This document shows positions 11,774 to 59,012 of a stretch of 64,000 bases of DNA, piece after piece (the stretch's first letter is position 1; every line of letters starts with the position of its first letter). This DNA is from a virus: positions 1-64,000 of IMG/VR virus record IMGVR_UViG_3300018083_000446; one strand, written 5' to 3'. The position numbers were made by a program, and so were the translations under genes. The notes under the pieces are model-generated. The model saw only the letters and a list, made by a program, of their open reading frames with translations, made no database searches and was not told the origin of the DNA.

Positions 11774-14086
11774 TCTTTCCTCCCGAGTAATGTATTTCGA
11801 CCAGCGCTTGAAGATCTCTTCCTTTAGTGTCTCACGTTCCGAAAAGCCTTCTTCACGCCTTCGTCCCGTATCCATCCTGTAATGAAAGAGAGGCACAGCG
11901 AGTCTAGTGCCACAATAATCCGCCGCCACAACTTTGAGTGCGAAGTCCCAATCTTCCCACGCAGGAAGCTCTTCATCGAACCCTCCTACTTTTTCCCAGA
12001 CTGCACGCGGGTACATACAAGTGACAGGCCAAGGAAGTTGGCGGAGTACACTATCACATCCGTCCCACTCAGGGGCGTGATGGACTTCGCCGGTGTCGTG
12101 TCGGTACCAGTCGGTGTATACGAACCCGCCCACGCGATGTTGTTCGACATACATGAGCTCGAGAGCTTCGGGTTGGAAGTAGTCGTCCGCGTCAAGGAAA
12201 ACGAACGTTTCGCCTCTAGCAGCAGCCATCCCGAAGTTGCGAGCAGCACCAGCACCGATAGCGCCGGTAGTGTGGACAACATGTGCCCAAGCAGGAAGCC
12301 CAGGCAAAGGGCCACCAGTGTCGTTGACAACAATCGCTTCCCACCAGCGGAACGTTTGAGATCGTACTGAGTCGAGCGCGTCGAGTACATAGCGTTCATG
12401 GCCTGGTCCCACCGGTATGATAACCGAGACTAAACTGAATTCGTGCATCGGGATGATTGGGTCGGTTCGTTCGTCGTCCACAGGTGCTAGCCATGGAGTT
12501 AGATCGGTCTGCTTTCCCCACGGGTACCATTGGTGCCAACCCCAATCTTCCTGGGTGTTGGACATTGAGTCGGGGCGATTACGATACCTGAGGACGACTG
12601 CGTCTGTCACACGCTTCGCATTGGCTCCGAACGAGGTCGCTCGACACCAAAAGTCCGCGTCTTCCGCAGTCGGACACCGGCGGCGGTACCCACCAACTCT
12701 CTGCCATATGGAACGACGATACATCGACGTGGAACAGATCTGGTTCTGGTGTTTCATCTGGCGGCGATACTCGAACTCGGGTGGCCATGGTGACTTCCAT
12801 TCCTCTCCACTAGGCTCGATCACCGACATTGCACCGTACGCTATGTGGATAGAACGATCACGGTCCAACGCATTCGACAACACGTGCAGCACGTTGGACC
12901 CGAGCATGTTATCAGAGTCTAGTGGGACGATGTATTTGCCACGTGCGGCTGATATGCCAGCGTTCAAGGTCTCTGCTAGGTAGAGGTTCCCAGGGTTGGT
13001 GATGATGCGTACACGAGGGTTGTCTCCAGCAACCTCTCGAACGATCTGGATAGACCGGTCAGTAGATGCATCGTCAACAACGACGAGTTCCCAATCCGCT
13101 TGAGGCTGGTCCAACACCGATTTCACAGAGTCAGCGATGTACGCTTCCATGTTGTGGACAGGCATCACGACGCTGATCTTAGGGCCCGTGTGTGGTTCGA
13201 GTAGTGAACGATACAGATCGTGGTAACGACGTATCGCCACTTCCCACGTGAAGTTACGCAACACATGAGCGCGAGCCGCAGCCCCTAACCGCCTACGATG
13301 TTTGAAACAGTACTCGAGCCCCTCTACCAACGAAGCGTAGTCGTTAGCAGGCGCCAACCAGCCTGTCTCTTTGTGGATCACGATCTCGTTTTGACCGCCC
13401 CAAGCCCATCCTAGGATCGGCACGCCAGCTGCCATTGCTTCTAGCGTACCTATCCCAAACGTCTCCCGAGTGGTGCACAAGTACACACCAGCGTTCTGAA
13501 TGTAGGCCTTGTGCTCTCCGAGGCTGGACACACCAACAGCTTCGACGTTGTCAGCAGGTGGCATACCCCAGTGGACTGTCGAGATGAACTTACGATTGGG
13601 GGCCAACTTGGACAGTTCCCACAATGGAGTAGGATCACATATCGGGTCGACTCGAGTTTTGTTCCAGAGCACGTACCCTTTGTTGGCGACTGGCTCCCAC
13701 GCTGTGGGGTCTATGCCGTGGTACAACACTTGAGCGTTGATGTTAGTCCCTCGAGCGATGGCTTGCGCAACCCACTTGGACGGAGCTGTCACAACGTCGG
13801 CTGCACGCATAGCCTTGATAACGTCGCGGTTCATCTTGAGGGCCCATTTCGGCCACTCGAACCCGTACCAGTACAACCCGTGGCAATGCGACACCACAGG
13901 TATTGTAGCGTCTGCATCGGCTGCCACACCGGCGTGTGTGGCGACGAGGTCGGCTGCGCCCGGCTCATCCACGATCTCCCACCCCATTGTGGGCAACCAT
14001 TGGTTCTGAGCTTCGACGACTCGCCTTATACCACCGTCGCCACGATCCTCGCCAATGAACCGAGGGCCAATAAACAGTTTAGCCAT
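11456..14086 (-). CDS. Three-domain glycosyltransferase (GT4 + GT2 + GT2) with small C-terminal domain
   Basis: 876 residues. Residues 1-about 290 are a GT-B (GT4-like) transferase with the retaining-enzyme motif FGIGTLEAMAAGVPILG. Residues about 300-530 are a GT-A/GT2 domain (ISVVMPVHNMEAYI, VVVDDAST, and DSDNM as the DxD-type metal site). Residues about 555-770 are a second GT2 domain (VSVIIPVGPGHERY, LDADDYF). A small unrelated domain follows (residue 772 on). Such a protein could add several sugars in series. It sits last in a run of seven carbohydrate genes with 4-8 base overlaps, inside the virion gene operon, so the acceptor may be a phage structural protein; that is inference. Confidence 0.85.
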   Translation of the reverse strand: MAKLFIGPRFIGEDRGDGGIRRVVEAQNQWLPTMGWEIVDEPGAADLVATHAGVAADADATIPVVSHCHGLYWYGFEWPKWALKMNRDVIKAMRAADVVTAPSKWVAQAIARGTNINAQVLYHGIDPTAWEPVANKGYVLWNKTRVDPICDPTPLWELSKLAPNRKFISTVHWGMPPADNVEAVGVSSLGEHKAYIQNAGVYLCTTRETFGIGTLEAMAAGVPILGWAWGGQNEIVIHKETGWLAPANDYASLVEGLEYCFKHRRRLGAAARAHVLRNFTWEVAIRRYHDLYRSLLEPHTGPKISVVMPVHNMEAYIADSVKSVLDQPQADWELVVVDDASTDRSIQIVREVAGDNPRVRIITNPGNLYLAETLNAGISAARGKYIVPLDSDNMLGSNVLHVLSNALDRDRSIHIAYGAMSVIEPSGEEWKSPWPPEFEYRRQMKHQNQICSTSMYRRSIWQRVGGYRRRCPTAEDADFWCRATSFGANAKRVTDAVVLRYRNRPDSMSNTQEDWGWHQWYPWGKQTDLTPWLAPVDDERTDPIIPMHEFSLVSVIIPVGPGHERYVLDALDSVRSQTFRWWEAIVVNDTGGPLPGLPAWAHVVHTTGAIGAGAARNFGMAAARGETFVFLDADDYFQPEALELMYVEQHRVGGFVYTDWYRHDTGEVHHAPEWDGCDSVLRQLPWPVTCMYPRAVWEKVGGFDEELPAWEDWDFALKVVAADYCGTRLAVPLFHYRMDTGRRREEGFSERETLKEEIFKRWSKYITREERMPCGCSGGGGAPSLPSFDVYAQAMNPSTPSQQDGAVLIEYVGDAAAPISYTGMKTGARYRFGSDPDHKVRWVYKDDVDHFLNREEFRLYASTEASPALAAAGPPR

Positions 14087-14546
14087 TCACATACACCTGC
14101 ACGTATCCTGGCAACGACCCCGCGACATTGGTCCAAGACCTTTGCAGGTCATTGGTCTTGTCCTCATCGAAGCGGAGTTTGCCACACACTAGTTCACCTT
14201 TTCCAAATGGAAAAGCTCGCGCAACTACGTAGTGCCCTTCGAGCGCGACGTAAGGTGCCGCGTCCAACGGACTGTGGATAGACGTGACCAGATCGAACTG
14301 GCCTATAATTTCACCAATGATTAACCGTGCATACAGCCTCGCATCTCGTTTTACGTCTGGATCGAATGTTTGGCCAATGGAGGGTTTACAACCGAACATG
14401 CGTGCGGCTCGCACCATGTATCCGTTGTGGCATGCTAGGTCGAGGTACGAGCGTGGGATACCCAGGCATGCAAACATGGCATGCATGGCACGCTCACTAG
14501 CCTCGCGCACTTCAGTAGACGGGTCGATCACCGACTTCGTACTCAC
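14079..14546 (-). CDS. SAM-dependent methyltransferase-like protein
   Basis: 155 residues. Motif I-like YLDLACHNGYMVRAARMFG (about 38-56) followed by a DPDV segment and FDLVTS, an arrangement of class I methyltransferases, but shorter than most. The start overlaps the next glycosyltransferase by 35 bases. One copy of the 16-bp palindrome lies inside the coding sequence (14199-14214) and encodes AFPFGKGE in frame. Possible sugar O-methyltransferase given its neighbours; the catalytic assignment is tentative. Confidence 0.6.
   Translation of the reverse strand: MSTKSVIDPSTEVREASERAMHAMFACLGIPRSYLDLACHNGYMVRAARMFGCKPSIGQTFDPDVKRDARLYARLIIGEIIGQFDLVTSIHSPLDAAPYVALEGHYVVARAFPFGKGELVCGKLRFDEDKTNDLQRSWTNVAGSLPGYVQVYVNG
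14199..14214. repeat. Palindromic element, copy 2 (inside a coding region)
   Basis: TTTTCCAAATGGAAAA, here read through as part of the methyltransferase-like gene. This is the only copy that is clearly within a gene. Confidence 0.9.
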
Positions 14547-15183
14547 CTATGTGCTCCCAAGGCCCCACTAGATTCAACGCTGCAGCGCGTAGCCCATTGT
14601 GCATGTTGCAACGATCAGAGTAGTCGCGTTCACAGACGTACGCATCCACCCCTTCAAGGAACGGACCGACCTTTTCGTAGAACCGCTTCGACGCCAGGAA
14701 CGGACGCGTCCCGAATACGAACCCACTCCCGAACTCTAGGTGGAGCCACCACCCAGGTCCAACCGTGAACTTGGTGAAACACGGTAGGTTAGGGTGTATC
14801 GGTCCTAGACGTACGAAGTCGTATTCTTCTTCGCGTATCAACCAGATTGCTTTATCGAGATTGATTGAGCCTCGATCATACGAATCTTGGAGTTCCCAAT
14901 CGTCAGTAGTGTACAGCCAAAGTTCGTTGTGCGCCACTCTAGCCAACGCTCGATTGAGGGATGCCCCAATGCCACCGTGCGGCCCGGTTACGATTGAAAC
15001 GTCCTCGCCGGGGAAATGCGTGATGTTAGGCGTCACAGGCGATCCATCGTCCGCTATGATGTATCGAATGGTCTCCGTGCGACATTTGAGGTTCTCCACC
15101 AACGCATCTAGGCAAGTCTGGGCGTAGGCGTGGCGTGGAGCGCTGGGTTCGGGGTTGTACGTAGTCATGACCACCGCTACCAT
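14512..15183 (-). CDS. GT2-family glycosyltransferase
   Basis: 223 residues with VAVVMTTYNPEP at the N-terminus, a nucleotide-binding YIIADDGSP and LWLYTTDDWEL in place of a canonical DxD, all features of GT-A fold family 2 enzymes. Short for the family; lacks membrane segments, so it is cytoplasmic. Its start overlaps the end of the 15177-15878 gene. Third of four glycosyltransferase genes in a row (reading 5' to 3' on the minus strand). Donor and acceptor cannot be read from sequence. Confidence 0.8.
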   Translation of the reverse strand: MVAVVMTTYNPEPSAPRHAYAQTCLDALVENLKCRTETIRYIIADDGSPVTPNITHFPGEDVSIVTGPHGGIGASLNRALARVAHNELWLYTTDDWELQDSYDRGSINLDKAIWLIREEEYDFVRLGPIHPNLPCFTKFTVGPGWWLHLEFGSGFVFGTRPFLASKRFYEKVGPFLEGVDAYVCERDYSDRCNMHNGLRAAALNLVGPWEHIGEYEVGDRPVY

Positions 15184-15878
15184 GATCGTTCGGCTCCTAT
15201 GTGCACGAACAGATCACCGTAGGGTTTGACTTCTTGTACGGGCCAGATCACGCCTTGACGCGCTTCAGAAATGTGCGCCACGGCGAACTCGGTCTGGCCT
15301 GGTTCGAGCCCCTCAGGCCAAGGACCCACGCTTCTCTCCCAACCCACTGTCTCGATCCTGGGGTGGCCAGAAAAAACGTGAGGTTCAGCTGATGATGGAT
15401 CGAGTCGTAACCATAGACGACCGTGGCTGGAGGCGAATTCACCGCGGAGTGGCTGAGTGAAACCCAAGTATCCCAACCGCATGCAGCCAGCGCCGAGTTC
15501 GTTAAGCGCTCCGATGAAGAGGTCAAGGTCGAGCTCACGTGTCAACTCCCAATCATCTTCCAGAACCAGAACATGGCTGGCAAAGTTGTGTACTAGCTGT
15601 GTCGCCAAGTTGTAGTTCGCCCCATAGCCTGAACGACGTGAATTCGATGTGGTCACTAGCTCGAGCGGGATGGGCGACGTGTCGGTGATCTCGTGGAGCG
15701 TTTGAATGTACTCGTCCGTATCGCCGTCACTGGCAATGTGCACGGACAGCGCTCCGCTCGTGCGCACGTGTGCCAACGCAGACGTGAGCGTCGTTTTGGC
15801 ATACTCGAGGCGCCCGTACGTCAACAACATGATGCACACGTTACTCATTGGGGTCCTCTTGACGAGGCACCCATTCAC
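15177..15878 (-). CDS. GT2-like glycosyltransferase
   Basis: 233 residues. The N-terminus NVCIMLLTYGRLEYAKTTL and the motif VLVLEDDWELT (an acidic metal-binding motif) mark a GT-A fold. The preferred start is uncertain: an internal Met (MSNVCIM) some 10 codons in, close to the end of the preceding gene, may be the true one. Overlaps both neighbours, so it belongs to the same coupled set. Acceptor unknown. Confidence 0.75.
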   Translation of the reverse strand: MNGCLVKRTPMSNVCIMLLTYGRLEYAKTTLTSALAHVRTSGALSVHIASDGDTDEYIQTLHEITDTSPIPLELVTTSNSRRSGYGANYNLATQLVHNFASHVLVLEDDWELTRELDLDLFIGALNELGAGCMRLGYLGFTQPLRGEFASSHGRLWLRLDPSSAEPHVFSGHPRIETVGWERSVGPWPEGLEPGQTEFAVAHISEARQGVIWPVQEVKPYGDLFVHIGAERSW

Positions 15879-16533
15879 GTGTTACGAGATCACGTGTCTC
15901 CAGGATAACCCCTTGCCACGATGCCTTCGAGGCCGTATCGGCTTCAGCGTGACGACGGTAGTTGTAGAGTGGAGCGCCGTTGGCAACTGGCCAGTGACGA
16001 CCTGCACGAGGGTAATTCCCGATGATGATCGAAAGGAGTGCGGCATCCGGAGCACCCGACGCTGATTGAACTGGAAAACCACCCGTTCGTCGCCACAACG
16101 ACTTAGTAACCATTGCCGCATTACAGGCGAGCTCCTGGGTCTCACCGGTGTCCGAATAACGAACACCCACGTAGTAGTAACCGTACGGATCGCCTTGACG
16201 CGCTTGGTATTCCTTGACGCACTCTTCGATACAAGTAGGCTCGAGCCAATCATCCGACCCCAGCATAAAAACGAGTTCGCTCGGCGCAACCGCGACACCG
16301 ATGTTGAATGCATGTGCTACCCCCAGGTACCAAGGGCTCTTCCACACAGAGTACGCCAGGTCACTGGGGACCATGTGTAGGCTGACATCAGCCATGTCGT
16401 CTACGATCTGGAGATGGATACCCCCATGCGACAGATGGTTCCACGTTTGGTCGCTCACTGAACGGATGCACTCGTCCAACCACCTACGATTAGACGGGTT
16501 AGGGCCGACAGGGATCGTAACGGTCACCATCAT
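15841..16533 (-). CDS. GT2-family glycosyltransferase
   Basis: 230 residues starting MMVTVTIPVGPNPSN, then LQIVDDMAD and FMLGSDDWLEPTC, the classic GT2 donor-binding and DxD-type motifs. Start ATG overlaps the stop of the reductase gene by 4 bases. It would transfer a sugar from a nucleotide donor, perhaps the deoxy sugar made by the two upstream short-chain dehydrogenases. Confidence 0.82.
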   Translation of the reverse strand: MMVTVTIPVGPNPSNRRWLDECIRSVSDQTWNHLSHGGIHLQIVDDMADVSLHMVPSDLAYSVWKSPWYLGVAHAFNIGVAVAPSELVFMLGSDDWLEPTCIEECVKEYQARQGDPYGYYYVGVRYSDTGETQELACNAAMVTKSLWRRTGGFPVQSASGAPDAALLSIIIGNYPRAGRHWPVANGAPLYNYRRHAEADTASKASWQGVILETRDLVTREWVPRQEDPNE

Positions 16534-17336
16534 ACCGTAATTGGTTCTCGATCGTAGGCTTCGACCAACCGCGTGAGGTCGCGCAGCAGACTAACCGTCG
16601 GTTTGAGGCCTCGATACACTATAGGTTCGTCCACTGGAACGATGTTGATATCCTTGGCGAACGCATCCTTGAGGTCCAGTAGCAGTTGGTACTTCGTCGT
16701 GACGGGCGCTGCCACGTGGTACAGGCTAGGGCTCATGTGGAACATCTTGATGAGCATATCTGCCACATCGTAGACCGTACTACCCGCCCAATACGCCTGC
16801 GTGTAACCTTCGATGGTGGCACCGGCTGGTTGATCCAGGAACCACCGTAGCAACCCGTGCTGCAACCCGATGAACGACGTACGAACGATAACGGTATCAG
16901 GGACTTCACCCATCACTTTGCTACGCCCGTAGAGGTTGATCGGGTCTGTACGATCGAGTATGCTTCGCAACCCAGGTGCGTACCCGCTGAACACGCAGTC
17001 AGTAGATACCAGGATCACTTTAGAAGCGTGGAACACGTCCTTCACAACCCACGGCCCGAGCGCGTTGGCACGCACCATATCGGAAGGCATGTGCAACCCT
17101 GTCATGTGATGCGGCGTAAGGCCTGCGCAATTCACGACGACGTGAGGGTGGATAGCACCTTCTACCTTACGCATGGCGTCCCAGTCGGAGATATCATGCT
17201 CCGAACCTGTTACCCACGTCTGGTACTTGGCTAGGCGCGCCGCTGTCGCAACAGCACGCCCGAGCATACCACGCCCGCCTAACACCAACACTCGACCCTT
17301 GAAACCTTCGGGTTCTTTGAGTTCGACTTCAGACAC
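16530..17336 (-). CDS. NAD(P)-dependent nucleotide-sugar reductase (RmlD/CapF-like SDR)
   Basis: 268 residues. Rossmann motif LVLGGRGMLGRAVATAA (about 16-32), NCAGLTPHH, the STDCVFSG serine motif and the YGRSKVMGE Tyr-x3-Lys catalytic pair, in the order seen in dTDP-4-dehydrorhamnose reductases and related extended SDRs. It follows a 4,6-dehydratase-like gene with an 8-base overlap, so together they could convert a 4-keto-6-deoxy intermediate to a deoxy sugar nucleotide. Which sugar is made is not decided by sequence. Confidence 0.82.
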   Translation of the reverse strand: MSEVELKEPEGFKGRVLVLGGRGMLGRAVATAARLAKYQTWVTGSEHDISDWDAMRKVEGAIHPHVVVNCAGLTPHHMTGLHMPSDMVRANALGPWVVKDVFHASKVILVSTDCVFSGYAPGLRSILDRTDPINLYGRSKVMGEVPDTVIVRTSFIGLQHGLLRWFLDQPAGATIEGYTQAYWAGSTVYDVADMLIKMFHMSPSLYHVAAPVTTKYQLLLDLKDAFAKDINIVPVDEPIVYRGLKPTVSLLRDLTRLVEAYDREPITV

Positions 17337-18261
17337 CTTCGCTCTCCCTTATCATCTGGACTAGCTCTGTGCGGGAGAGCGGTTCGGCTAGATTGGAACT
17401 CATCGTAGGTAGTTCGCGTGTGTAGTCCTCGCTACCTGGCGGCATGATGGCGTAGAAGTTGTCGTACGCCTTGGTGCGATAGAGTTCGTAGTGGGTGATG
17501 AGGTCTTCGTGCTGCTTTTCACCAGGACGCTTCCCAACTACTTGGATTCGCCCAGCCTCGAACTCAGACCCACACACTTCCAACACAGCGTGCGCTATGT
17601 CGATCATACGTGCAGCGCGTGGGACAGGGACCGTGATCGAACCTCTAGGGGCGGCGAATGCCTTGACGATGGTATCCACAGCATCGTTGATGCTCATCCA
17701 GAACCTGGTCATGTCAGGGTCTGTTACACGAATGCAACCGTCTTCGCGGAATTGTTCACGCATGACAGGCACGACAGACCCAGTCGAACCAATGACGTTC
17801 CCGTAACGACACGCGTTGTACCCGTACTCAGATACCAGGCGTTCCATGAGCGCCTTGGTGATCCCATACGTGTTGACTGGCTGTGCAGCTTTGTCGGTGG
17901 ATATGGCTACCAAGCTTGCCATGTGTACGGTACGTGCGGCGTGCAACACGGTGCCTGATCCGACGACGTTCACCCTAGCGAACTCGTCTACGTTGAACTC
18001 ACCTTCGGGGATGAACTTCGCAGCTGCAGCGTGAATCACTGCATCGTGGCCTACCATCAGGTTCTGGACACGACCCAAGTCTGTGATATCCCCAAGCACG
18101 AATCGTGCATCGGGGAACTGTTGTGCACAACGGTATTGCTTTTCCTCGTCACGTGAGAGGATAGTGAACTTGGCGGGCCAACCGTCGCGCTGTGCACGAC
18201 GTAGAATCCCGCGACCCAAGTAACCAGTCCCCCCGGTGATCAAGATATTGCCTTTCAGCAT
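17329..18261 (-). CDS. Nucleotide-sugar 4,6-dehydratase (FlaA1/CapE-like SDR)
   Basis: 310 residues from ATG 18261, which overlaps the stop of the repeat-protein gene (TGATG). Motifs in order: ITGGTGYLGRGILRRA (NAD binding), HAAAAKFIPEGE, STDKAAQPVNTYGITKALME (S/T-D-K and YxxxK catalytic residues), RYGNVIGSTGSVVPVM, MTRFWM and GEKQHEDLI. This series is characteristic of UDP-GlcNAc 4,6-dehydratases. It is the first gene of the carbohydrate block, and its coupling to a virion protein gene suggests that glycan synthesis is timed with virion assembly. Confidence 0.87.
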   Translation of the reverse strand: MLKGNILITGGTGYLGRGILRRAQRDGWPAKFTILSRDEEKQYRCAQQFPDARFVLGDITDLGRVQNLMVGHDAVIHAAAAKFIPEGEFNVDEFARVNVVGSGTVLHAARTVHMASLVAISTDKAAQPVNTYGITKALMERLVSEYGYNACRYGNVIGSTGSVVPVMREQFREDGCIRVTDPDMTRFWMSINDAVDTIVKAFAAPRGSITVPVPRAARMIDIAHAVLEVCGSEFEAGRIQVVGKRPGEKQHEDLITHYELYRTKAYDNFYAIMPPGSEDYTRELPTMSSNLAEPLSRTELVQMIRESEGV

Positions 18262-20684
18262 CAAATCTCCCAGGGTTTGACCGCCTCTGCGGGCGGTTCG
18301 CAATTAGAGGGTTCGTACACCCAATCGTTATCACCGTAGTCTCGTGCTACTCCTACAGGCCAGACCACCTCCCTATCTAACGTATTGTCTTGTTCGCACG
18401 CTACGTAGTTCTCGAGCAACGGTGGTGCAATGTAGATCGCACCTAAGTTCTGAGCTCGTGGGCCTAGCGTGCCTCGCAGCGCTGTGGGTGGTGCAGCGAA
18501 TCGTATCTCGGCTCTAGCTCCGACACGACCTACCAATCCACCTTGGCGGAACAACAGACCAGCTACGCTTTGTGCATGCGTGCCTACGCGTGCTACCAAT
18601 ACCGTACGACGAATCGCTTGGTATGTGTTGGTGGCGCGTGGGCCGATTGTTATCGTAGCTGCAAACCCTCGCTGTGGGACCATTACAAAGTTGGGGCGAG
18701 CGCCCGCGCGCCCGACTGCAGGAGCGGATCGTACGCTAAGGATAACGAAGTCCACCCTAGCACCAGCGCGCCCCAACACACTGCCACTAGTAGTGCGCGT
18801 GGCTGCCGTTTGCGATTGAGTACCTACACTAGCCGTTCCAACTACAGTGATCCTCTTGACACCAGCGTTCTGCGCTCGAGAACCAGTGTGGCCAGCAGCA
18901 CTCCTCGACCCGCCAATAGCACCGACCAGCGTACCACGCGTGCCTGCGCTACCAACAGCAGCGCCGCTCGAGTTCTTCGCACCAACGTCCTGTGCGCGGG
19001 ACCCAACACTACCTTGCGCCGTACCAGTTAGGTTAGTGACGGTTTGTGCAGAGTTCTGAGCGTGGGTTCCTACTCGACCGCTAACGCTGGCGGTGGTTGA
19101 ATGCGCCCCAGCCGTGGTGGCTGTGGGGCCACTACGTGCAACGTCAGTCGCAGTGATTGATTTGACGCCTGCGTTCTGTGCACGTGAACCTGCATAGCCA
19201 GCTACGAACTTGGCTCCGCCTTGTGCACCCACCGTGGCAGCATGTGTGCCTACACGACCCACCACTGCAGACGTACGTTGTGCTACGTCTACATGTGTAG
19301 CTCGACTGCCAACGCTGGCGACTTGGGCGGTGGTGATGCGCTTGACGCCTGCATTGGTGGCGCGTGGACCTACACTACCTGCGACAGTCGCAGGAGCTGC
19401 TGCTGGTATAACAAACTGTGCCCACGAAACGAGTATGCGACGCTCGATGACTTCCGCGCCAACGTTGGTAGCACGTGGGCCAACGTGGCCCAAGGATGGT
19501 GGGCGTGTAGCAGCTGCTGGTATCTCTAGTTGTACCCACGATACCTGAGCACGCGCTGTTATACCTTGGCTACCAACGGTTTGAGCGTGCGCTCCCACAC
19601 GCCCCACCACCGTCGATGTGTTGGTACGTGCGACGGCCGTAGTGACCTTAGCGCCTACTGAAGCTACGTGGGGGTTGGCGATCTTCTTGACGCCAACCGC
19701 TACAGCCCTAAAGCCTGTCTTGCCAGCGATCGCACCGCTAACACCAGTGATCTGTGAACCAGCGGTTGTCGCGTGGGTGCCAACTTTAGCTGTGGCCGCT
19801 ACACTAGTGCTATGTACGCCTACGTCAGTCGCACGTGGGCCGACTCGAGCGGCGCCTGTAGCAGTCGCACTACGTACGCCTACATTCTGGGCACGTGGGC
19901 CAGCTGTTCCAACCAGTGGTATACCAGCTGCGGCGGTTGGTACTTGTAGTGATACGTAGGATACTACGGCACGCGGTTGTGGAATAAACCCTACGTTGGT
20001 AGCACGTGGACCAAGTTTGCCAACTATCGCACCCACGCTCTGTTGCATGAACGTGAGGTTAGCGCTGAACTCAACCCACGGGTTTAGGTCAGTAGTTAGC
20101 CCATCAGAATGTGCAAAGTCTGACGCGGCTGAATCACCAAAGCGAAGCGTCGTTGTGAACGAGGTAGACGTACCAGCTTTGCGAAAGCCAATCTCAATAA
20201 CGAGGTAGTCGCCAGCGCTGAACGTACGTGACGTTAGCGTGAGGGTTGTGGCTTCAGCGGCGTCCTGGAAACGCCGTGTCAGAGCAGAAGTGGTAAACTC
20301 AGGTGGGGCAGCAGCTGTGTTATCGCTAGCACTAACAGCTAGCAGGTCATTGATGTGTGTGCCCGCGCTGGAGACCTGGCGTATGTTGATCGCTACGGTC
20401 GAGTTGAGGTTAGCGTTCGACTCTAGACCACGAATGACGCCGGTGACCGTACCACTGATGGTCTGCGCCGCCATCGGTCCAACGATGTACTGGCGCATGA
20501 CCGTCGTCGCCGGGTTGGCGGCTGACGGGCTTGCACTAGCGTGGTTCGCAAGGGTTGTGTTTGCCTTAGTTGTCGAACCAATCTCGCGGTCGAAGCCCGT
20601 TGTAGCTGTGGCTGTCCAACCAGTTCCTACGGCTGGCGAAATCGCCGGCGTGGTGCCGTCTGGTAGGTAGATCCTCGTAGCCAC
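18261..20684 (-). CDS. Large virion protein made of about 24 Gly/Arg/Ala repeats
   Basis: 807 residues. The first about 215 resemble a jelly-roll-like virion domain. Then come about 24 repeats of 18-25 residues with the core G-x-x-G-(P/T/S/A)-(R/H)-A-(T/Q)-x-(V/A)-G. Three repeats carry an insert of the type VSWVQLEIPAAA. A 50-residue, Cys-containing, acidic C-terminus ends the protein. No known fold is recognised for the repeats; they could form a beta-solenoid or fibre shaft, and are rich in Ser and Thr. Single copies of the motif occur in the three other virion proteins at 1-2748, 20689-22674 and 22674-23810. It is directly upstream of the glycan block. Confidence 0.75.
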   Translation of the reverse strand: MATRIYLPDGTTPAISPAVGTGWTATATTGFDREIGSTTKANTTLANHASASPSAANPATTVMRQYIVGPMAAQTISGTVTGVIRGLESNANLNSTVAINIRQVSSAGTHINDLLAVSASDNTAAAPPEFTTSALTRRFQDAAEATTLTLTSRTFSAGDYLVIEIGFRKAGTSTSFTTTLRFGDSAASDFAHSDGLTTDLNPWVEFSANLTFMQQSVGAIVGKLGPRATNVGFIPQPRAVVSYVSLQVPTAAAGIPLVGTAGPRAQNVGVRSATATGAARVGPRATDVGVHSTSVAATAKVGTHATTAGSQITGVSGAIAGKTGFRAVAVGVKKIANPHVASVGAKVTTAVARTNTSTVVGRVGAHAQTVGSQGITARAQVSWVQLEIPAAATRPPSLGHVGPRATNVGAEVIERRILVSWAQFVIPAAAPATVAGSVGPRATNAGVKRITTAQVASVGSRATHVDVAQRTSAVVGRVGTHAATVGAQGGAKFVAGYAGSRAQNAGVKSITATDVARSGPTATTAGAHSTTASVSGRVGTHAQNSAQTVTNLTGTAQGSVGSRAQDVGAKNSSGAAVGSAGTRGTLVGAIGGSRSAAGHTGSRAQNAGVKRITVVGTASVGTQSQTAATRTTSGSVLGRAGARVDFVILSVRSAPAVGRAGARPNFVMVPQRGFAATITIGPRATNTYQAIRRTVLVARVGTHAQSVAGLLFRQGGLVGRVGARAEIRFAAPPTALRGTLGPRAQNLGAIYIAPPLLENYVACEQDNTLDREVVWPVGVARDYGDNDWVYEPSNCEPPAEAVKPWEI
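18438..20030 (-). repeat. Protein-level tandem repeats, about 60-bp period
   Basis: DNA encoding the repeats of the 807-residue protein. The unit is about 54-75 bp; Gly-Pro-Arg-Ala-Thr/Gln-Asn codons recur (for example the sense-strand word GGCCCACGTGC). Units are diverged rather than identical, so this is an old expansion. Confidence 0.8.
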
Positions 20685-29893: not shown

Positions 29894-31615
29894 CTAATCC
29901 AAGTTCAACCGTTTGCATTCGTGGACGGCCATTGATAGGGCGACCGCCAAGTCGATCTTAGAGCCGGCGCCTTTCTTTACCAGACGCATCTTGGTGTTCG
30001 AGTCCTTGGCGATCTTCGCCGCGGCGTGGGAGATGTGTTCACGTACATCAACGTCACCGAAGTGTAGGATCGTACGGTCACGGATGTATGTGTATAGCAA
30101 ATGGTCCGCTACCATACGATCACCACCTTGGCTGAACGAGTACGCCCACACCAGGCCTTCGTTGCGGAAGCGAGTCATCATGTCGTGCAACTGGTACATG
30201 TCATACGCCAGTTGGAGGACGTTGAGCTTGGCTTGGGGGATGCACGGGCCGAGCTGGTTAACGTAGTCGTGAGACGCGCAGGGCTGGTTGAGTGGGTGGA
30301 TATGGCCTGTCAACCACTGGCGCAGCGTTGGCTCGATCGTGAGGGAGTAGTTGATCGTGCCGCCAGGAGGCGGGGTCCATAACGCGGAGCGGCGCAGTAC
30401 GATCTTTTGTGGGTTAGTCGGGTGGCGCGATACGATGATAGCACCGCTACAGTCACCAGAAACTGAGGCGTCGGCCGCCACCACAACCGGAGTATCTGGA
30501 GTCAGGGTTTGAAGGGACGGGTCAAGCTCGTCCGGAGTCGCCCTGCAATGGTCCCACCATTCCGTTGGCAAAAAGGAGGAGACACTGGATACCCAGTTAT
30601 TGTTGTGGAGACGGTCGAACGCTTCAGGGCGCAGCGTCGTAGCTTGGCTCTGGTAGTAGGAGGGTACTTGCCAGGGCATTCTACGTGCTGCTTCGCCCGT
30701 ATCCCAATACGTGAACAATCGCGCTCGCGGGTTCACGTACAGCGGGAGGGCGTCGGTCTCTGGTCCTGGCCAGTCTGGTACGTCGTCTCGAGTAAGCTGG
30801 CGAGCGCCTCGCTCTGGCAGGGTACCGAGTTCGAACTGCTCGATAAGTAGAAGGCTTTCACCTTCAAATCCTGCATAAGTCTCAACCCACCTAATGGACT
30901 TAGGCCGCGTGGGAACGGGAGTTAGTTCGTCCCACAGACGTTGAGACCCCTCGAGAGTGTAGCCCCAAAGCTCAGACCAGAATGTGGCCGTGGGGTTCAT
31001 ACCAGCCTGGCCCTTGTAGTCACCGGAGAGAGGGCGTATGACTGAGCCGGATGGAACGTGCGTAGCGTCACGACGTATGATATCCCAGTACCCTGGGATT
31101 TCTTCTTTGTGTCGATCGTAACGCGGATCGAGCTCTAGGGACTTGAGAACTTTATCGTACAACAAACCTCGAGACTGGTCGAGGTCGTTAGCCACCATGT
31201 AGATTTCGTTAGCACCACCCCAACGCTCAGCCACCCAACGGGCGATCATCGAGGCGATCGTAGTCTTGCCAGACTTCTTCACGGTGGAGTAGATAAAGTT
31301 CTGGAACCCGTCCTCGACGCCCATACGGGCTGCGAAGTCGGGGGCGAATGCGCAGCGCAGAATTACGCGTTGGACGGGTTCCAGCTTGATAGGGCGACCA
31401 GTCTCTGGAACGAAGAAACTGGTGTGTGCAAAGTCGAACAGGTCTTCCGGGCTGAACCGCGGGTGTGTACGGCCTCTAGGGGCGTCTTCCAAGCTGGATT
31501 GGGGGAGCGCACGGATCTTAGCGCCTAGGTGGGTAGCGAGAACTCGTGCGGCTTCCAGCTGGGCTGGGCTCAGCGCGTCCGTCGGTGGGGGCACCGAAGC
31601 CGACGCGGTTGTCAC
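29894..31615 (-). CDS. terL: Terminase large subunit
   Basis: 573 residues; GTG start overlapping the small terminase stop (GTGA). Walker A-like STVKKSGKTT (residues 110-119), Walker B-type TATFWSELWGY with the Glu at 215, coupling motif region after it, and an RNase H-like nuclease with VVVAADASVSGDCSGA (about 384-400) and the C-terminal KIDLAVALSMAVHE Asp. This is the ATP-driven packaging motor and DNA-cutting enzyme. Length and motif order are normal. Confidence 0.93.
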   Translation of the reverse strand: MTTASASVPPPTDALSPAQLEAARVLATHLGAKIRALPQSSLEDAPRGRTHPRFSPEDLFDFAHTSFFVPETGRPIKLEPVQRVILRCAFAPDFAARMGVEDGFQNFIYSTVKKSGKTTIASMIARWVAERWGGANEIYMVANDLDQSRGLLYDKVLKSLELDPRYDRHKEEIPGYWDIIRRDATHVPSGSVIRPLSGDYKGQAGMNPTATFWSELWGYTLEGSQRLWDELTPVPTRPKSIRWVETYAGFEGESLLLIEQFELGTLPERGARQLTRDDVPDWPGPETDALPLYVNPRARLFTYWDTGEAARRMPWQVPSYYQSQATTLRPEAFDRLHNNNWVSSVSSFLPTEWWDHCRATPDELDPSLQTLTPDTPVVVAADASVSGDCSGAIIVSRHPTNPQKIVLRRSALWTPPPGGTINYSLTIEPTLRQWLTGHIHPLNQPCASHDYVNQLGPCIPQAKLNVLQLAYDMYQLHDMMTRFRNEGLVWAYSFSQGGDRMVADHLLYTYIRDRTILHFGDVDVREHISHAAAKIAKDSNTKMRLVKKGAGSKIDLAVALSMAVHECKRLNLD

Positions 31616-46056: not shown

Positions 46057-46339
46057 TATGGCCGAAACCGCTAACATCACCGTGTTGTACGACGCTGGCC
46101 CTTCAACCAGGGCTGTGGTCTACATCAATGGTGAACTGCACGAAGCAGCCAACCACACCAACGAGGACGGATTCGTATGGTCCTTGCTCGACCAACTCCA
46201 AGGCAAGATCGTCGGAGAGATCGACACCACCGAATACCTCAAGGCTGACTACTACGACGTCAACGATCGTAACGACTCTTTCCCACCGTTGCTCCATGAC
46301 ATTCCTAAAGACGAATACGAGGACCCGGATAACCTATGA
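46034..46339 (+). CDS. Small acidic protein
   Basis: 101 residues from ATG 46034; ATG 46058, two bases after the previous stop, is an alternative start. Beta N-terminus (NITVLYDAGPSTRAVVYI) and Asp/Tyr-rich end. Unknown. Confidence 0.6.
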   Translation: MNTTTEDSMAETANITVLYDAGPSTRAVVYINGELHEAANHTNEDGFVWSLLDQLQGKIVGEIDTTEYLKADYYDVNDRNDSFPPLLHDIPKDEYEDPDNL

Positions 46340-47028
46340 GTACTCTACGACTCGAAGGTCTAGGGCTCGGGCGTCACGAAGACCCCGACCCTAAGGATGC
46401 GCTCTTCCCAGTACGCACGTTGCTGCAAGCGTTCCCATCAGCCCCTCCAGCCTACCGCATGTGGCCACACCCGTACCCTCACCCGTTAGACCAAGGTAAT
46501 ACTGGTACGTGCGTCGGTCATGGCTTCAAGCACCAACTCATGGCTGCCCCTGGCAAACGCTACGATTCAGACGAGGAACCTACAGCACTCACCATCTACC
46601 GGGAGGCCTGCCCCCTAGATCCGTGGCCTGAGAACGACGACGGTAACCTCCAACACGGTACGTCCGTGCGTGCTGGTGCCCAGGCCCTGATGGCTCGTAA
46701 CATCATCACCAGTTACTGGTGGGCTAACACCCTCCAGGATTGCATCGACCATCTGTTGCTACGTGGGCCGTTGGTATTGGGGTGGAACTGGTACGAGTCC
46801 ATGTTCTACCCTACCTCCAAAGGGTACATCACCCCTAGTGGTGGTGTGGCTGGTGGGCACTGCCTGCTTGCCATCGGTGTTATCCCTGAAGCTCGACGCA
46901 TCCGTTTACTCAACTCATGGGGTGGAGACTGGGGCCAGAACGGCCGCGTGTGGGTATCGTACGATACATTCGAGCGTCTCATGGACGAGGACGGTGAAGC
47001 ATGCACCACGGTAGAACCGAGGCCGTAG
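46336..47028 (+). CDS. Papain-like (C1A-type) cysteine peptidase
   Basis: 230 residues. Q53-GNTGTC59-VGHGF gives the oxyanion Gln and nucleophile Cys; GGH175CLLAIGV supplies the His; LLN193SWGGDWGQNG supplies the Asn and the conserved Trp. All residues needed for activity are present, with no signal peptide or propeptide, so it should act in the cytoplasm. A closely related layout is known in some phage and bacterial C1A proteins. Targets could be host proteins or phage assembly proteins. Followed after 4 bases by a glycosidase-like gene. Confidence 0.85.
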   Translation: MSTLRLEGLGLGRHEDPDPKDALFPVRTLLQAFPSAPPAYRMWPHPYPHPLDQGNTGTCVGHGFKHQLMAAPGKRYDSDEEPTALTIYREACPLDPWPENDDGNLQHGTSVRAGAQALMARNIITSYWWANTLQDCIDHLLLRGPLVLGWNWYESMFYPTSKGYITPSGGVAGGHCLLAIGVIPEARRIRLLNSWGGDWGQNGRVWVSYDTFERLMDEDGEACTTVEPRP

Positions 47029-53661: not shown

Positions 53662-53871
53662 GTGCCACACATCGTAACGTTTCCTAAGTGCCAGACGTGC
53701 GGGTCTGGCGAAGCACGCACGTGCCCTGTGTGTGCAGAATGGACTTGCTTTGAATGTTTGATTGTAGTAGACGAGCATGATGATTCAGACTGTGTCCACA
53801 TCCTCCCCCCACCACTCCCCCCAGGCGGGTGGTCCGATAGCGGGCCCGGAGTGTCACAGAGGGACCTGTAG
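53662..53871 (+). CDS. Zinc-finger small protein overlapping the polymerase start
   Basis: 69 residues, GTG start at about 53662. CQTC, CPVC and CFEC give three CxxC pairs (about 10, 20 and 30), a strong zinc-binding pattern, followed by an Asp/His and Pro-rich tail. It overlaps the polymerase gene by 95 bases. Confidence 0.6.
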   Translation: MPHIVTFPKCQTCGSGEARTCPVCAEWTCFECLIVVDEHDDSDCVHILPPPLPPGGWSDSGPGVSQRDL

Positions 53872-56242
53872 AGGGTATGGTGATCCCAGCTATGGGGTGG
53901 TACTGGTAGGGATTGCGCCTGGTGGACGTGAGGTCGATCTAGGTCGGCCGTTCGTGGGTGCATCAGGCCAGTTCATGGACTCTATGCTCCAGCTTTGTGA
54001 TTGGCCTCGAGCTAAAACTTACGCTACGAACCTGATATGCTGGTGGAAGAACGATCCGACTGATGAGGAGATTGCTCGATGCGCGACACGGTTCACGGAA
54101 GAGATCCGTTCTATCCAGCCTCGGCTGATAATCTCGTTGGGCCAGATCGTAACGTCACGACTTACGGGCCTGCCCAGGAAAACCAAGAATATCCTGGGAA
54201 GTGTACTATGGTCCGAAGAATTCAATTCCTACGTCCTGACGACGCGCCACCCAGCTGGCGTATTACGTGCCCAGAGCATGACCATGGCTCAGGACCTAAT
54301 ACGAGACTTCGACAAAATCCCTATGATACTGGAGTGGCCTCGTGACGGCTCGATCGCAACCTTCGACTACGAAGTGGTTACCGACCCTACACAAGCCCAA
54401 GCAATCCTTGACTCTCTCCCCCGTGACGGGCGAACGAACGTCGTCATCGACATCGAAACGAATTCGAAGACAACCGACGAGTCCGACACTGACGTTTTCA
54501 CAGAAGAGCTCCTGCGTGTGGGATTTCGATGGCGTGTGGATGGTGGAAGAGAGTACGTATACACGTTCCGACCCGGAGCTTGGGCCGACGGACTGCGTTT
54601 TCCTGACGGTGTACGATGGCAGTTCCAGTTCGGTGTATACGACACTATGGGGCTATGGCGACACCTTGGACAGCGCCTACCAATCGCTGAGGACCTCGGT
54701 CTCAAGTCATATTGCGTCGACGAACGAGCCGGGCACCACGGCCTTAAAACGCTGGCTCGAGAGTACCAAGGAGCAGGATGGTACGACGCCCCCCTAGAAA
54801 GCCATAAGAAGAATGGCTCAATGCACAAACTGCCGCCAGAGGTGGTCGACAGGTATAACTCAGCCGATGTTGTGTACACTGGACGAACCGACCCCATTCT
54901 CTCTGCGCGTATGGAGCGCGAAGGTACTACTAACCTCTACTACAACATCCTTATCCCAGCGTACAATGTGTATCGTGATGCCCAATATCGAGGCATCAAC
55001 ATTGACCATCGAAAGCTTATCCAGCTAGGCTGGGAAACGTGGATGCCTCGATGGATCGGTATGGAACGCGAGATGCAGGCGGAAGCCTCCGATCTGGGTT
55101 TCAAAGGCGAAATCAACTTAGGTAGCCCGTTGCAGCTGTCCACATTCTTCTTCGAGACGCTGGGCCTCGAACCAATCAAAATGACTCGAGGCGGTGTGCG
55201 AACCGCCCCACGTCCATCGACCGACAAGGAAGTGCTGGAACAGCTAGACCACCCGTTCGCGCGGAAGCTGCGCACGTTCCGCACGCTGGACGGTATGATG
55301 GACTTCGTGTTCCAAATCCAGAACGAGATCAAACTCGATGGGGCTATCCACCCTTCAGGCCAGTTCCACACCGCACGCACCGGCCGTAGGACCTACAAGC
55401 GTCCACCCATGCAAACCATCCCACAAGCGTACACCGTGGGGGCTGAGTACGCACAGATCGAGGAAATCTTCATACCCCACAACCCCGCTACACATGGGAT
55501 GCTCAAGGTAGACTACGAACAGATCGAGGCGTGGGTAGGCTGGTTCCTGTCTCAAGACCCAATCATGCTAGAGCACTTGCTGTCTGGCGATATCCATTCC
55601 GCCACGGCTGAACTAGCGTTCAAGATTGACCGAAACGATTACGGCCCGCAATACCGCAAGAACCCTGAATGGGACGTGAAGCGACAGGGTGCCAAGAAAC
55701 TACGATACACGCTGATGTATGGTGGTGGGCCTGACAAGGTAGGTGCACCCCCACCTGTAGGCTTGGGTATCCCGTACAACGAAGCGTCGTTATTGATACG
55801 CAACTTCTGGTCTGGGTATCCTACGTTCACCAGGTGGGCACGCATGATCGAAACGGCAGCACGCAACCAAGGTGAACTGTGGTCCGAGTTCGGGCGCAAG
55901 ATGCACTTTCCAGTGATCTTGGACACTGATTCCCTACGCCAGGCTATCAACTTCCCTATCCAGTCCAACGCATCGGACCACGTACTCGTAAGCGCTCTCG
56001 AGCTGGCTGAAAGCTTGAAGGCCTACAACTCGTTCTTCTTGTTGGACGTGCACGATGCGATCTGGATTGAGTACGATCTACGTTACGAACTCGAAGTCAC
56101 GCGCCTGGTACGTGAGGTAATGGAGCGTCCGAAGATGGCAGGCGGGCCTAACATCGCTGTTGAAATCAAGGTCGGCCCCAACATACACAACACTCATACC
56201 GTAGAACGTGAGTCGCCTTGGGTCTTCAATGCCGTACACTAA
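53777..56242 (+). CDS. DNA polymerase A with fused uracil-DNA-glycosylase-like domain
   Basis: 821 residues. Residues 40-190 are a UDG-superfamily domain: GIAPGGREVDLGRPFVG (45-61) and the TRHPAGVLRA motif (157-165). Residues about 220-370 are a 3'-5' exonuclease (D225-I-E227, D289, Y360-NSAD364). Residues about 390-821 are the polymerase: VDYEQIEAW (motif A, D579), KRQGAKKLRYTLMYGG (motif B, about 635-650) and DVHDAIWIE (motif C, D760 followed by Ala instead of the usual Glu). Replicative polymerase of the phage. UDG-like domains fused to phage polymerases are known (SPO1 type). The start is uncertain because of overlap with the zinc-finger gene. Confidence 0.93.
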   Translation: MMIQTVSTSSPHHSPQAGGPIAGPECHRGTCRGYGDPSYGVVLVGIAPGGREVDLGRPFVGASGQFMDSMLQLCDWPRAKTYATNLICWWKNDPTDEEIARCATRFTEEIRSIQPRLIISLGQIVTSRLTGLPRKTKNILGSVLWSEEFNSYVLTTRHPAGVLRAQSMTMAQDLIRDFDKIPMILEWPRDGSIATFDYEVVTDPTQAQAILDSLPRDGRTNVVIDIETNSKTTDESDTDVFTEELLRVGFRWRVDGGREYVYTFRPGAWADGLRFPDGVRWQFQFGVYDTMGLWRHLGQRLPIAEDLGLKSYCVDERAGHHGLKTLAREYQGAGWYDAPLESHKKNGSMHKLPPEVVDRYNSADVVYTGRTDPILSARMEREGTTNLYYNILIPAYNVYRDAQYRGINIDHRKLIQLGWETWMPRWIGMEREMQAEASDLGFKGEINLGSPLQLSTFFFETLGLEPIKMTRGGVRTAPRPSTDKEVLEQLDHPFARKLRTFRTLDGMMDFVFQIQNEIKLDGAIHPSGQFHTARTGRRTYKRPPMQTIPQAYTVGAEYAQIEEIFIPHNPATHGMLKVDYEQIEAWVGWFLSQDPIMLEHLLSGDIHSATAELAFKIDRNDYGPQYRKNPEWDVKRQGAKKLRYTLMYGGGPDKVGAPPPVGLGIPYNEASLLIRNFWSGYPTFTRWARMIETAARNQGELWSEFGRKMHFPVILDTDSLRQAINFPIQSNASDHVLVSALELAESLKAYNSFFLLDVHDAIWIEYDLRYELEVTRLVREVMERPKMAGGPNIAVEIKVGPNIHNTHTVERESPWVFNAVH

Positions 56243-56777: not shown

Positions 56778-56958
56778 AACCATAGTCGAACTACTGATAG
56801 ACGACTATTGGAAAAAGGAGGCCGATGCCGTCATAGACAGAGCCCTGGCTGTGGGGTTCAACCTCGATACTGTCGCAGCCATCATAGTGCAGAACGGCAC
56901 TGACATGCTTATCCTACTGACATTCTGGAAGCCCATACTGGAGCAAGAACATGCCTGA
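56761..56958 (+). CDS. Small helical protein
   Basis: 65 residues. Two helices (IVELLIDDYWKKEADAVIDRAL, VAAIIVQNGTDMLILLTFWKPIL), the second hydrophobic enough to touch the membrane. Overlaps both neighbours. Unknown. Confidence 0.6.
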   Translation: MPEQRETIVELLIDDYWKKEADAVIDRALAVGFNLDTVAAIIVQNGTDMLILLTFWKPILEQEHA

Positions 56959-57655
56959 TACATCGACGACCGCTCCGTATCAGTTGATGCCACCACTCAG
57001 CGACGATGAGTACAACGCGCTGAAGTCTGACATCAAGGAACGCGGCGTCGCTGTTGCCATCGAGTTTGATGGCGACGGTAATCTGTTAGACGGTCACCAT
57101 CGACTGCGTGCATACGAGGAACTCATCGACGAAGGGTTCGACGTACCGATGTATGACCAAAAGGTCATGCACTTCGAGAACGAAGAAGCCAAACGCGACT
57201 ACGTCCTCGCGCTCAACCTCAAGCGTCGCCACCTAACGGGTGAGCAGAAGGCCTTGTTGTACGCTCGACTGCGCCAGCCCCCCTTCAACATGACGCTCCA
57301 AGCCATCGCTCGAGTGGCTAATGTAGGCGTGGGTACTGTGTGGCGCAAGCTCGAAGAGGTCCCTGCTGACGTACGTGAAACGCTCGACCAGCTCGAGACC
57401 ATTGGGCGTGATGGGAAGACCTACCCAGCCGTATATGGTGGGGCCGTTGAGCGTACCATCATCCCAGCTGAGAAGGCGCTACGTGACCACACGTCGAAGG
57501 GCTACACTAGTGGCGACCAATCCAGCGAGATCGCCCCGAAGTTCCTGATCGTGATCACATGCCCTGACGAGGACACTCAATCCAACATACTCGAAGGGCT
57601 CCCAGCCCAAGACTGGGCCGACGACGGCGTCTCCATCAAAGCGATCATCTCATGA
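56951..57655 (+). CDS. ParB-like protein
   Basis: 234 residues. LLDGHHRLRAYEEL (about 46-58) is the ParB/sulfiredoxin-fold signature, and NLKRRHLTGEQKALLYARLR plus TLQAIARVANVGVGTVWRKL looks like a helix-turn-helix DNA-binding part. Residues about 195-234 add an unrelated C-terminal domain. ParB-fold proteins bind or hydrolyse CTP or cut DNA. The start of the ABC-GNAT gene overlaps its stop by 4 bases (ATGA), so the two are made together. Confidence 0.82.
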   Translation: MPDTSTTAPYQLMPPLSDDEYNALKSDIKERGVAVAIEFDGDGNLLDGHHRLRAYEELIDEGFDVPMYDQKVMHFENEEAKRDYVLALNLKRRHLTGEQKALLYARLRQPPFNMTLQAIARVANVGVGTVWRKLEEVPADVRETLDQLETIGRDGKTYPAVYGGAVERTIIPAEKALRDHTSKGYTSGDQSSEIAPKFLIVITCPDEDTQSNILEGLPAQDWADDGVSIKAIIS

Positions 57656-58803
57656 AGGTGACCGTCGAATCAAACGTGGCACGCACTGCGCGTGTCATGC
57701 AGATGGAAGGCATCTTCGACGTGCCTGCATCTAAACGTACCCGCCTCGAGTGGGACGTAAACCTACCTCTCTCGGAAAGGAGTTGGGACATTGGACTCAT
57801 CGTTGGGCCGTCCGGCTCCGGGAAGACCACTGTGGCACGCCATCTCTGGCCTACACACCTTGGAACCACATACGAGTGGGACCTCGCTAGATCGGTCCTT
57901 GACTCGTTCCCAGATGGTATGCCTGTGCGAAAGATCGTTGAAATCCTCAACTCGGTCGGGTTCTCCTCTCCGCCTGCATGGGTGCGTCCATATCATGTTC
58001 TTAGTACTGGAGAACAATTCCGAGTAACCGTAGCTCGTGCGCTGGCTGAGGCGTTACACAGGCCTGAGGGGGCAGAGCCCGGCACGCGAAAATTAGTGGT
58101 GTTGGACGAATTCACTTCTGTCGTCGATCGTACTGTCGCGCAGATCGGTTCGTGTGCGATTGGACAGGCCGTGCGAGCATACAACGAACGGGTGCAATTC
58201 GTTGCAGTGACTTGCCACTATGACGTGGAAGATTGGCTCCAACCAGACTGGGTGTACACCCCAGTCACCAATGAGTTCACTTGGAGGTCGGTTCGACCCC
58301 GCCCCCAAATCGAACTTGAAGTCTTCCGCGTTCATCATTCGGCATGGCAGCTATTCAAGCACCATCACTATTTGAGCACGGAGCTCAATCATGCCGCTTT
58401 TTGCTTTGTCGCCATGTGGCGAGGAATCCCCGTCGCTTTCGACGCGTGGCTCCCCCAGCCTCATGGCCAGATTCACAATCTTCGAAGGGAGCACCGCGTC
58501 GTCGCTCTGCCTGACTATCAAGGGGTTGGTATCGGGAACGCTCTCTCCCGGCATATTGCTTCCATGTGGAAATCACTCGGTTTTCGTGCAATGTCTACGG
58601 CCGCCCACCCAGGGCTGGTACGCTCGCGTGCGCGCTCTTCACTATGGAGAATGCATCGTCCCCCTGGTCGTACCGCTGGAGGTGGTATGATGTCTCGTGA
58701 CAAACAGTTCGGCTCTAAGATCGCCATCGACCGACTCAGCGCCGGGTTCGAGTACATCGGCCCAGAGATGGACCGTGACATGGCAAGGAAACTTTTAGGG
58801 TGA
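57652..58803 (+). CDS. ABC-type ATPase fused to a GNAT acetyltransferase-like domain
   Basis: 383 residues. ABC ATPase: Walker A GPSGSGKTT (52-60), signature LSTGEQFRVTVARA (117-130), Walker B KLVVLDEFTSV (147-157, catalytic-type E153), and H189 of the switch. No membrane segments, so not a transporter. Residues about 225-345 have a GNAT fold with an acyl-CoA loop (Q290-GVGIG) and a Cys-Phe-Val core strand. The C-terminal about 35 residues are basic. A similar GNAT fold is used by the Mu Mom DNA-modification protein; this link is inference. Coupled to the ParB-like gene. Confidence 0.85.
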   Translation: MKVTVESNVARTARVMQMEGIFDVPASKRTRLEWDVNLPLSERSWDIGLIVGPSGSGKTTVARHLWPTHLGTTYEWDLARSVLDSFPDGMPVRKIVEILNSVGFSSPPAWVRPYHVLSTGEQFRVTVARALAEALHRPEGAEPGTRKLVVLDEFTSVVDRTVAQIGSCAIGQAVRAYNERVQFVAVTCHYDVEDWLQPDWVYTPVTNEFTWRSVRPRPQIELEVFRVHHSAWQLFKHHHYLSTELNHAAFCFVAMWRGIPVAFDAWLPQPHGQIHNLRREHRVVALPDYQGVGIGNALSRHIASMWKSLGFRAMSTAAHPGLVRSRARSSLWRMHRPPGRTAGGGMMSRDKQFGSKIAIDRLSAGFEYIGPEMDRDMARKLLG

Positions 58804-58850: not shown

Positions 58851-59012
58851 ATGGACAAGTGCGAGAATTGCGGTGAAGAATTCAAACTACCAGCGCTCCG
58901 CTACACAACCGTGCCACCCGAATGGGCGCTCAAGTATCGAGCGGAAGGCCACGTGGACGGGCGCGCTTATTTGTGCGGGTCCTGCCGTAAGCTAATAAAG
59001 GCGCTTAGGTGA
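58851..59012 (+). CDS. Zinc-ribbon micro-protein
   Basis: 53 residues. Two CxxC pairs (CENC near the start, CGSC near the end) about 38 residues apart. Its stop overlaps the GTG of the tail protein gene (GTGA at 59009-59012). A basic C-terminus suggests nucleic-acid binding. Confidence 0.6.
   Translation: MDKCENCGEEFKLPALRYTTVPPEWALKYRAEGHVDGRAYLCGSCRKLIKALR

Follow-up and report, generated by a model that had tools for sequence, protein, structure and literature searches.

A pair of overlapping genes in a virus genome probably encodes a module that acylates DNA bases in the manner of Mom of phage Mu, using a different enzyme that stands outside the Mom family. The pair lies in a stretch of 64,000 nucleotides (hereafter the window) that covers positions 1-64,000 of IMG/VR record IMGVR_UViG_3300018083_000446, a virus record of 64,973 bases in all, and it codes for a ParB-like protein and for a fusion of an ABC ATPase with a GNAT domain (ABC-GNAT). 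DNA modification had been proposed for the pair in the preliminary description, and this reading is strengthened by two independent exchanges with DNA-modifying enzymes, one in the Com slot of Mu-like phages and the other in the ParB slot of Arthrobacter phages. The decisive synteny was found in relatives and not in the window itself.

The gene pair and its two proteins

Both genes lie on the + strand, the ParB-like gene (234 aa) at 56951..57655 and the ABC-GNAT gene (383 aa) at 57652..58803, and an ATGA common to the two ORFs forms the 4-bp overlap that had been described for them. Compared with the closest relative, locus L002 (protein 88% identical), most differences are at the third position of a codon (83 of 122 for the ParB-like gene, 105 of 162 for the ABC-GNAT gene) and synonymous codon changes outnumber non-synonymous ones (69 vs 31 and 89 vs 42, respectively), so that, judged by this codon comparison, both ORFs are real genes under purifying selection. 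Directly after the ABC-GNAT gene stands a 53-aa zinc-ribbon-like ORF (58851-59012, +) that has no match to Com; L002 and L003 carry another small ORF at this position.

The fusion protein matches PHROG 11143 (function unknown) over essentially its full length (1.7e-97, residues 1-374 of 383); searched by itself against Pfam, the window protein gives weak matches (ABC_tran 6.7e-5, Acetyltransf_7 9e-4). An AlphaFold2 model built on 55 sequences reached a pLDDT of 91.7 and a pTM of 0.87. Its ABC nucleotide-binding domain (residues 1-212, 57652..58287) resembles ABC ATPases, 7w7c and MJ0796 among them, with Z ~14, and the complete set of ABC motifs noted earlier is indeed present and invariant in 55 relatives: Walker A GPSGSGKT (residues 52-59, 57805..57828; G52, S54, G55, G57 and K58), the signature LSTGEQ (residues 117-122, 58000..58017; L117, S118 and G120), Walker B (residues 147-153, 58090..58110, ending in D152-E153) and the switch histidine H189 (58216..58218). 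Fold searches with the whole fusion were filled by ABC transporters and listed no Mom structure, which is uninformative; a PDB sequence search returned short matches only, the best of them ABC ATPases. The model is compact and free of any evident membrane span, as seen by inspection and not with a dedicated membrane predictor, and no transporter gene was seen adjoining ABC-GNAT. PADLOC matches to mad3 (3.2e-10) and mad8 were set aside as generic ABC similarity, the former covering the stretch from signature to Walker B and the latter Walker A.

The GNAT fold is present as well and extends over residues 220-371 (58309..58764), slightly wider than the 225-345 given in the preliminary description. 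Its best solved counterparts include 1y9k (Z 14.7, rmsd 3.9, 138 residues), RimI (2cnm, Z 13.7) and the IAA and glyphosate acetyltransferases. The acyl-CoA loop noted in the preliminary description is QGVGIG at residues 290-295 (58519..58536), where Q290 and G291 are invariant and G293 nearly so; the other GNAT residues invariant in 55 relatives are H239, Y240, R282, V284 and P287, the first two of which belong to an HHYL motif (residues 238-241, 58363..58374).

The ParB-like protein was modelled with a pLDDT of 79.8 and matches KorB (8qa9) with Z 10.0 and an rmsd of 3.8 over 129 residues, which gives it a ParB N-terminal fold with a helix-turn-helix (HTH). Sequence searches agree, with a PDB match to Noc (0.0018) and ParB-like matches in PHROGs. 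Residues 7-92 (56969..57226) form a nucleotide-binding-like domain that aligns with CTP/CDP-bound ParB structures (Z ~9) and carries a GHHRLRA motif, read by eye, and residues 93-149 (57227..57397) form a Noc/KorB-type HTH resembling the DNA-binding domains of Spo0J (4umk, Z 6.9) and ParB (6s6h, Z 5.6). Among the fetched loci the HTH segment was matched only in the window, L002, L003 and L058, and the window protein is therefore an HTH-bearing variant. The last residues, 195-234 (57533..57652), form a C-terminal tail common to the ParB partners of ABC-GNAT (tail profile match, E 2.9e-14), for which the model of ParB alone shows no confident fold. In fold and HTH the protein is like ParB, KorB and Noc; unlike them, it bears this tail, and the genes around it show no sign of a partition system.

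The partnership is a general feature of the family. Of the 198 fetched loci with room for one, 173 have a ParB-like homologue as the gene immediately upstream of ABC-GNAT, the two genes often overlapping by 4 or 22 bp; in most of the other 25 loci a ParB match occurs at a somewhat greater distance or in the reading frame of ABC-GNAT. These ParB partners finish with a conserved tail of ~40 residues, and in L012 (603 aa) and L197 (611 aa) ParB, tail and ABC-GNAT are naturally fused in a single protein. A small number of phages, PX29, pT24 and P12024S among them, clearly depart from this rule and have ABC-GNAT but no detectable ParB, so the ParB partner is not always needed.

Homologues of ABC-GNAT were found in 53 phage records, with hosts that include Gordonia, Aeromonas, Streptococcus, Leptospira and Porphyromonas, and in many viral contigs; bacterial genomes also carry them, many belonging to Planctomycetota and Nonomuraea. 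The window protein matches that of Tenacibaculum phage pT24 at 2e-56 (33.5% identity, covering 97% of its length) and is ~35% identical to that of Pseudomonas phage Komp_PAO1_1. Several phages of Firmicutes have ABC and GNAT as two adjoining genes. A terminase-like cluster often follows closely on the ParB/ABC-GNAT pair (73 loci, within L002-L217), but not on the window copy. A tblastn search of 50,697 phage records with the terminase-like large ORF of the window (29894-31615, -) found nothing at E up to 1e-5, so this phage belongs to a poorly sampled lineage.

Several other genes of the window deserve mention. A uracil-DNA glycosylase domain is fused ahead of a family A DNA polymerase at 53777-56242 (+), where residues 33-170 match Pfam UDG at 2.8e-23 and residues 433-802 match DNA_pol_A at 1.3e-51. 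By eye, a run of ORFs at 11456-18303 (-), among structural genes, resembles glycosyltransferases and NAD-dependent sugar epimerases/reductases, an 807-aa ORF at 18261-20684 (-) consists of many VGxRAxxVGA-type repeats, and an ORF at 46336-47028 (+) is papain-like (GNTGTCVGHG ... GGHCLLAIG ... LLNSWGGDWG).

Genomic slots shared with Mom and DNA methyltransferases

The first exchange is seen between the Arthrobacter phages EastWest and Sonny, whose flanking genes correspond (EW73/Sonny68 64%, EW78/Sonny72 80% and the clamp 45% identity) and whose ParB domains are 55% identical. Between these same flanking genes EastWest carries ABC-GNAT and Sonny a Mom-like protein, with one extra small gene between ParB and Mom in the latter. 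The C-terminus of ParB changes as well, being the tail in EastWest with ABC-GNAT and a zinc ribbon in Sonny with Mom. The Mom-linked ParB of Microbacterium phage Antuna has a zinc ribbon too, and the tail is absent from both Mom-linked ParB proteins tested. Since the ParB C-terminus switches together with the enzyme, the sequences point to the tail as a putative partner-specific coupling piece.

The second exchange concerns Mu-like phages, where Com is the translational activator of mom, as stated in PMC6483171 and in the phage Mu record. A scan of viral contigs that took as its query the formyltransferase-like gene adjoining ABC-GNAT in Komp_PAO1_1 yielded 25 loci, and in 25/25 of them this gene overlaps the end of the ABC-GNAT gene. 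All 25, like Komp_PAO1_1, have the order com, tail mini-protein, ABC-GNAT and formyltransferase-like gene, mostly overlapping. A full ParB was not found in these 25 loci, where the tail occurs alone as the mini-protein; such stand-alone tail ORFs of Mu-like phages measure ~42-66 aa. The Com homologues that were scanned proved to be PF10122 (up to 9.1e-21, the value for Komp_PAO1_1), with L243 just below the cut-off, and Com was absent from all ParB-type loci examined. Because a Com homologue precedes it, the module occupies the position of mom in Mu-like phages.

When viral sequences were scanned separately with an alignment of Com, 80 loci were retained, of which 4 were at contig ends and 76 could be assessed. 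The gene after Com was a DNA methyltransferase in 71 (61 recognised by motifs and 10 by inspection), ABC-GNAT in 3, esterase-like in 1 and without assignment in 1; these loci are mutually related, and the numbers are not counts of independent events. Pfam searches on 68 Com-slot proteins gave D12 methyltransferase for 48, N6_N4 for 21, C5 for 3 and ABC/GNAT for 3, with overlapping counts. As 74/76 slots hold a methyltransferase or ABC-GNAT, the Com slot can be regarded as a slot for DNA modification. In one Mu-like locus (L334:2959-4635), com, ParB-like and methyltransferase-like genes stand in a row, which unites the Com slot with the ParB partnership.

Mom and ABC-GNAT thus fill the same slots, after com and after ParB, and both belong to the GNAT superfamily; in contrast, Mom has no ABC domain, and the C-terminus of its linked ParB proteins is a zinc ribbon, in place of the tail seen in the partners of ABC-GNAT. 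Membership of the Mom family (PF25680) was rejected. The window protein had no Pfam match to it at E up to 0.1, it was not among the 25 most frequent of the 31 families matched by 55 relatives, and a Mom profile search of the window found no match. Comparing the GNAT part with Mom and with other GNAT families also went against kinship, with an hhalign probability of 7.8% over 42 columns only for Mom and the best scores for generic acetyltransferase families. That alignment places HHYL of ABC-GNAT on KHYS of Mom, a weak register match, and the shared HY motif was kept as a lead. A tblastn search with a short made-up Mom-like peptide had no match, a result that carries no weight given the query, and Com had no match within the window. 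The parallel with Mom drawn in the preliminary description therefore survives for the mode of working, as seen in position and partner, and falls for family membership. Aeromonas phage PX29 has an ABC-GNAT gene and, in addition, a Mom-like one (loci L043 and L252).

Proposed mechanism and competing explanations

On the reading that we favour, the ParB-like protein would bind DNA, here with an extra KorB/Noc-type HTH, and its C-terminal tail would bring the ABC-GNAT enzyme to the DNA. The ABC part would bind and hydrolyse ATP as a dimer and probably gates or remodels the DNA to make a base accessible, upon which the GNAT part could transfer an acyl group from acyl-CoA to the exocyclic amino group of that base, most simply N6 of adenine. 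Virion DNA modified in this way would withstand host nucleases. The parts of this scheme differ in their grounds. The evidence that DNA is the target is indirect and strong, because the slots are exchanged with Mom and DNA methyltransferases. The GNAT fold, its loop and the donor genes of relatives suggest acyl chemistry with CoA; ATP use is predicted because the ABC motifs are invariant, the fold of ParB and its linkage to ABC-GNAT suggest guidance, and analogy with Mom predicts protection against host nucleases. Biochemistry for any ABC-GNAT member was not found in the literature searched.

The GNAT domain could instead acylate proteins of the host or the phage, such as RNA polymerase or one of the defence proteins, with ParB and the ABC part guiding it to DNA-bound targets. 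The RimI match shows that protein N-acetyltransferases are among the best solved folds, and Rac, a GNAT of phiKMV-like phages, acts on RNA polymerase according to a passage of PMC7824862. However, a protein-modifying enzyme would leave the exchange with Mom and DNA methyltransferases in the same slots hard to explain, and the conserved partner is of a DNA-binding, ParB type, so we hold a protein target to be rather unlikely; the host protein named as an alternative target in the preliminary description is retained as such and has become less likely given the slot exchanges.

A small molecule is harder still to accept as the substrate. The resemblance of the GNAT part to IAA and glyphosate acetyltransferases, and the donor-making neighbours of some relatives, which could feed metabolism, would suit acylation of a nucleotide or metabolite rather than polymer DNA, but the DNA-binding partner and the DNA-modification slots would then go unexplained, and we give this reading next to no weight. 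It is also highly unlikely that the ParB-like protein acts alone, in partition, as a nuclease or as a regulator, beside an ABC-GNAT neighbour of unrelated role. ParB-like proteins are widespread in phages and the best fold match, KorB, is a plasmid regulator, yet the two genes are linked across ~200 loci and fused in two, and the tail occurs beside ABC-GNAT, is missing from both ParB proteins tested that go with Mom, and persists as a mini-protein in Mu-like phages.

Possible acyl donors and significance

DNA acylation, as favoured here, requires a donor, and some relatives carry candidate genes for making one. PanD (PF02261) and a short CoA-transferase of family III (PF02515) lie downstream of ABC-GNAT in phage Jace and in L185, L187, L213, L219 and L221-L223, and L025 has the CoA-transferase without an adjacent PanD; several of the loci with both genes are unrelated to one another. 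In the PanD copies the Gly-Ser site of self-cleavage is kept wherever the read extends over it, L185 being a partial read. Scans with PanD and CoA-transferase queries were narrow and gave 2 and 4 loci, all beside ABC-GNAT. PanD yields beta-alanine, and the known reactions of the two enzymes suggest beta-alanyl-CoA as a possible donor in the phages that have both genes.

The formyltransferase-like neighbour in Mu-like phages is a different case. Catalytic roles are assigned to the Asn and His of the N-x-H motif and to an Asp of formyltransferases. In 27/27 copies read, this Asn is Gly or Ala, and His and Asp are kept; the activity of the protein is uncertain because of the replacement. Homologues of PanD, the CoA-transferase and the formyltransferase, like those of Com, were not found in the window, and its phage would accordingly draw on host acyl-CoA. 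A wider picture, possible though doubtful, is that the family comprises DNA acylation systems which depend on ATP, are targeted by ParB and can replace one another, and that some phages also make the donor. PanD would make beta-alanine, CoA-transferase III would turn it into beta-alanyl-CoA and GNAT would place the aminoacyl group on a base; elsewhere a formyltransferase-like protein might act on the adduct, and the window member would be the variant that uses host acyl-CoA.

The core of this idea is already published as a prediction, since Iyer et al. (2013) predicted that a GNAT-ABC system, exemplified by pT24, acylates DNA, as restated in a passage of PMC7824862. That system has the same architecture and predicted function as the window pair, and its pT24 member is homologous; the window ParB differs by its extra HTH. 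A further likeness is to the ParB-linked DNA methyltransferases of phages (PHROG 498, and the com-ParB-methyltransferase row of L334), in which a ParB-like domain is likewise coupled to a DNA-modifying enzyme, with a methyltransferase where the window has an acyltransferase. What is added here is the partnership through the ParB tail, the placement in the Com slot, the exchange with Mom and the donor-gene neighbours. The slot exchanges, the tail and the donor-gene link were not found in the titles and abstracts searched, and Iyer et al. (2013) may contain part of them.

The function of ABC-GNAT has stood as a prediction since 2013, and the slot exchanges make the idea of a DNA target directly testable in named culturable phages, such as EastWest against Sonny, Jace, BiggityBass (which carries the formyltransferase-like gene) and Komp_PAO1_1. 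By analogy, the module probably hides phage DNA from bacterial defences. If the aminoacyl scheme is true, aminoacylated bases would count as a novel type of DNA modification; if the donor reading is right, phages would build their own acyl-CoA for decorating DNA, thereby adding to the chemistry known for DNA and opening new anti-restriction routes.
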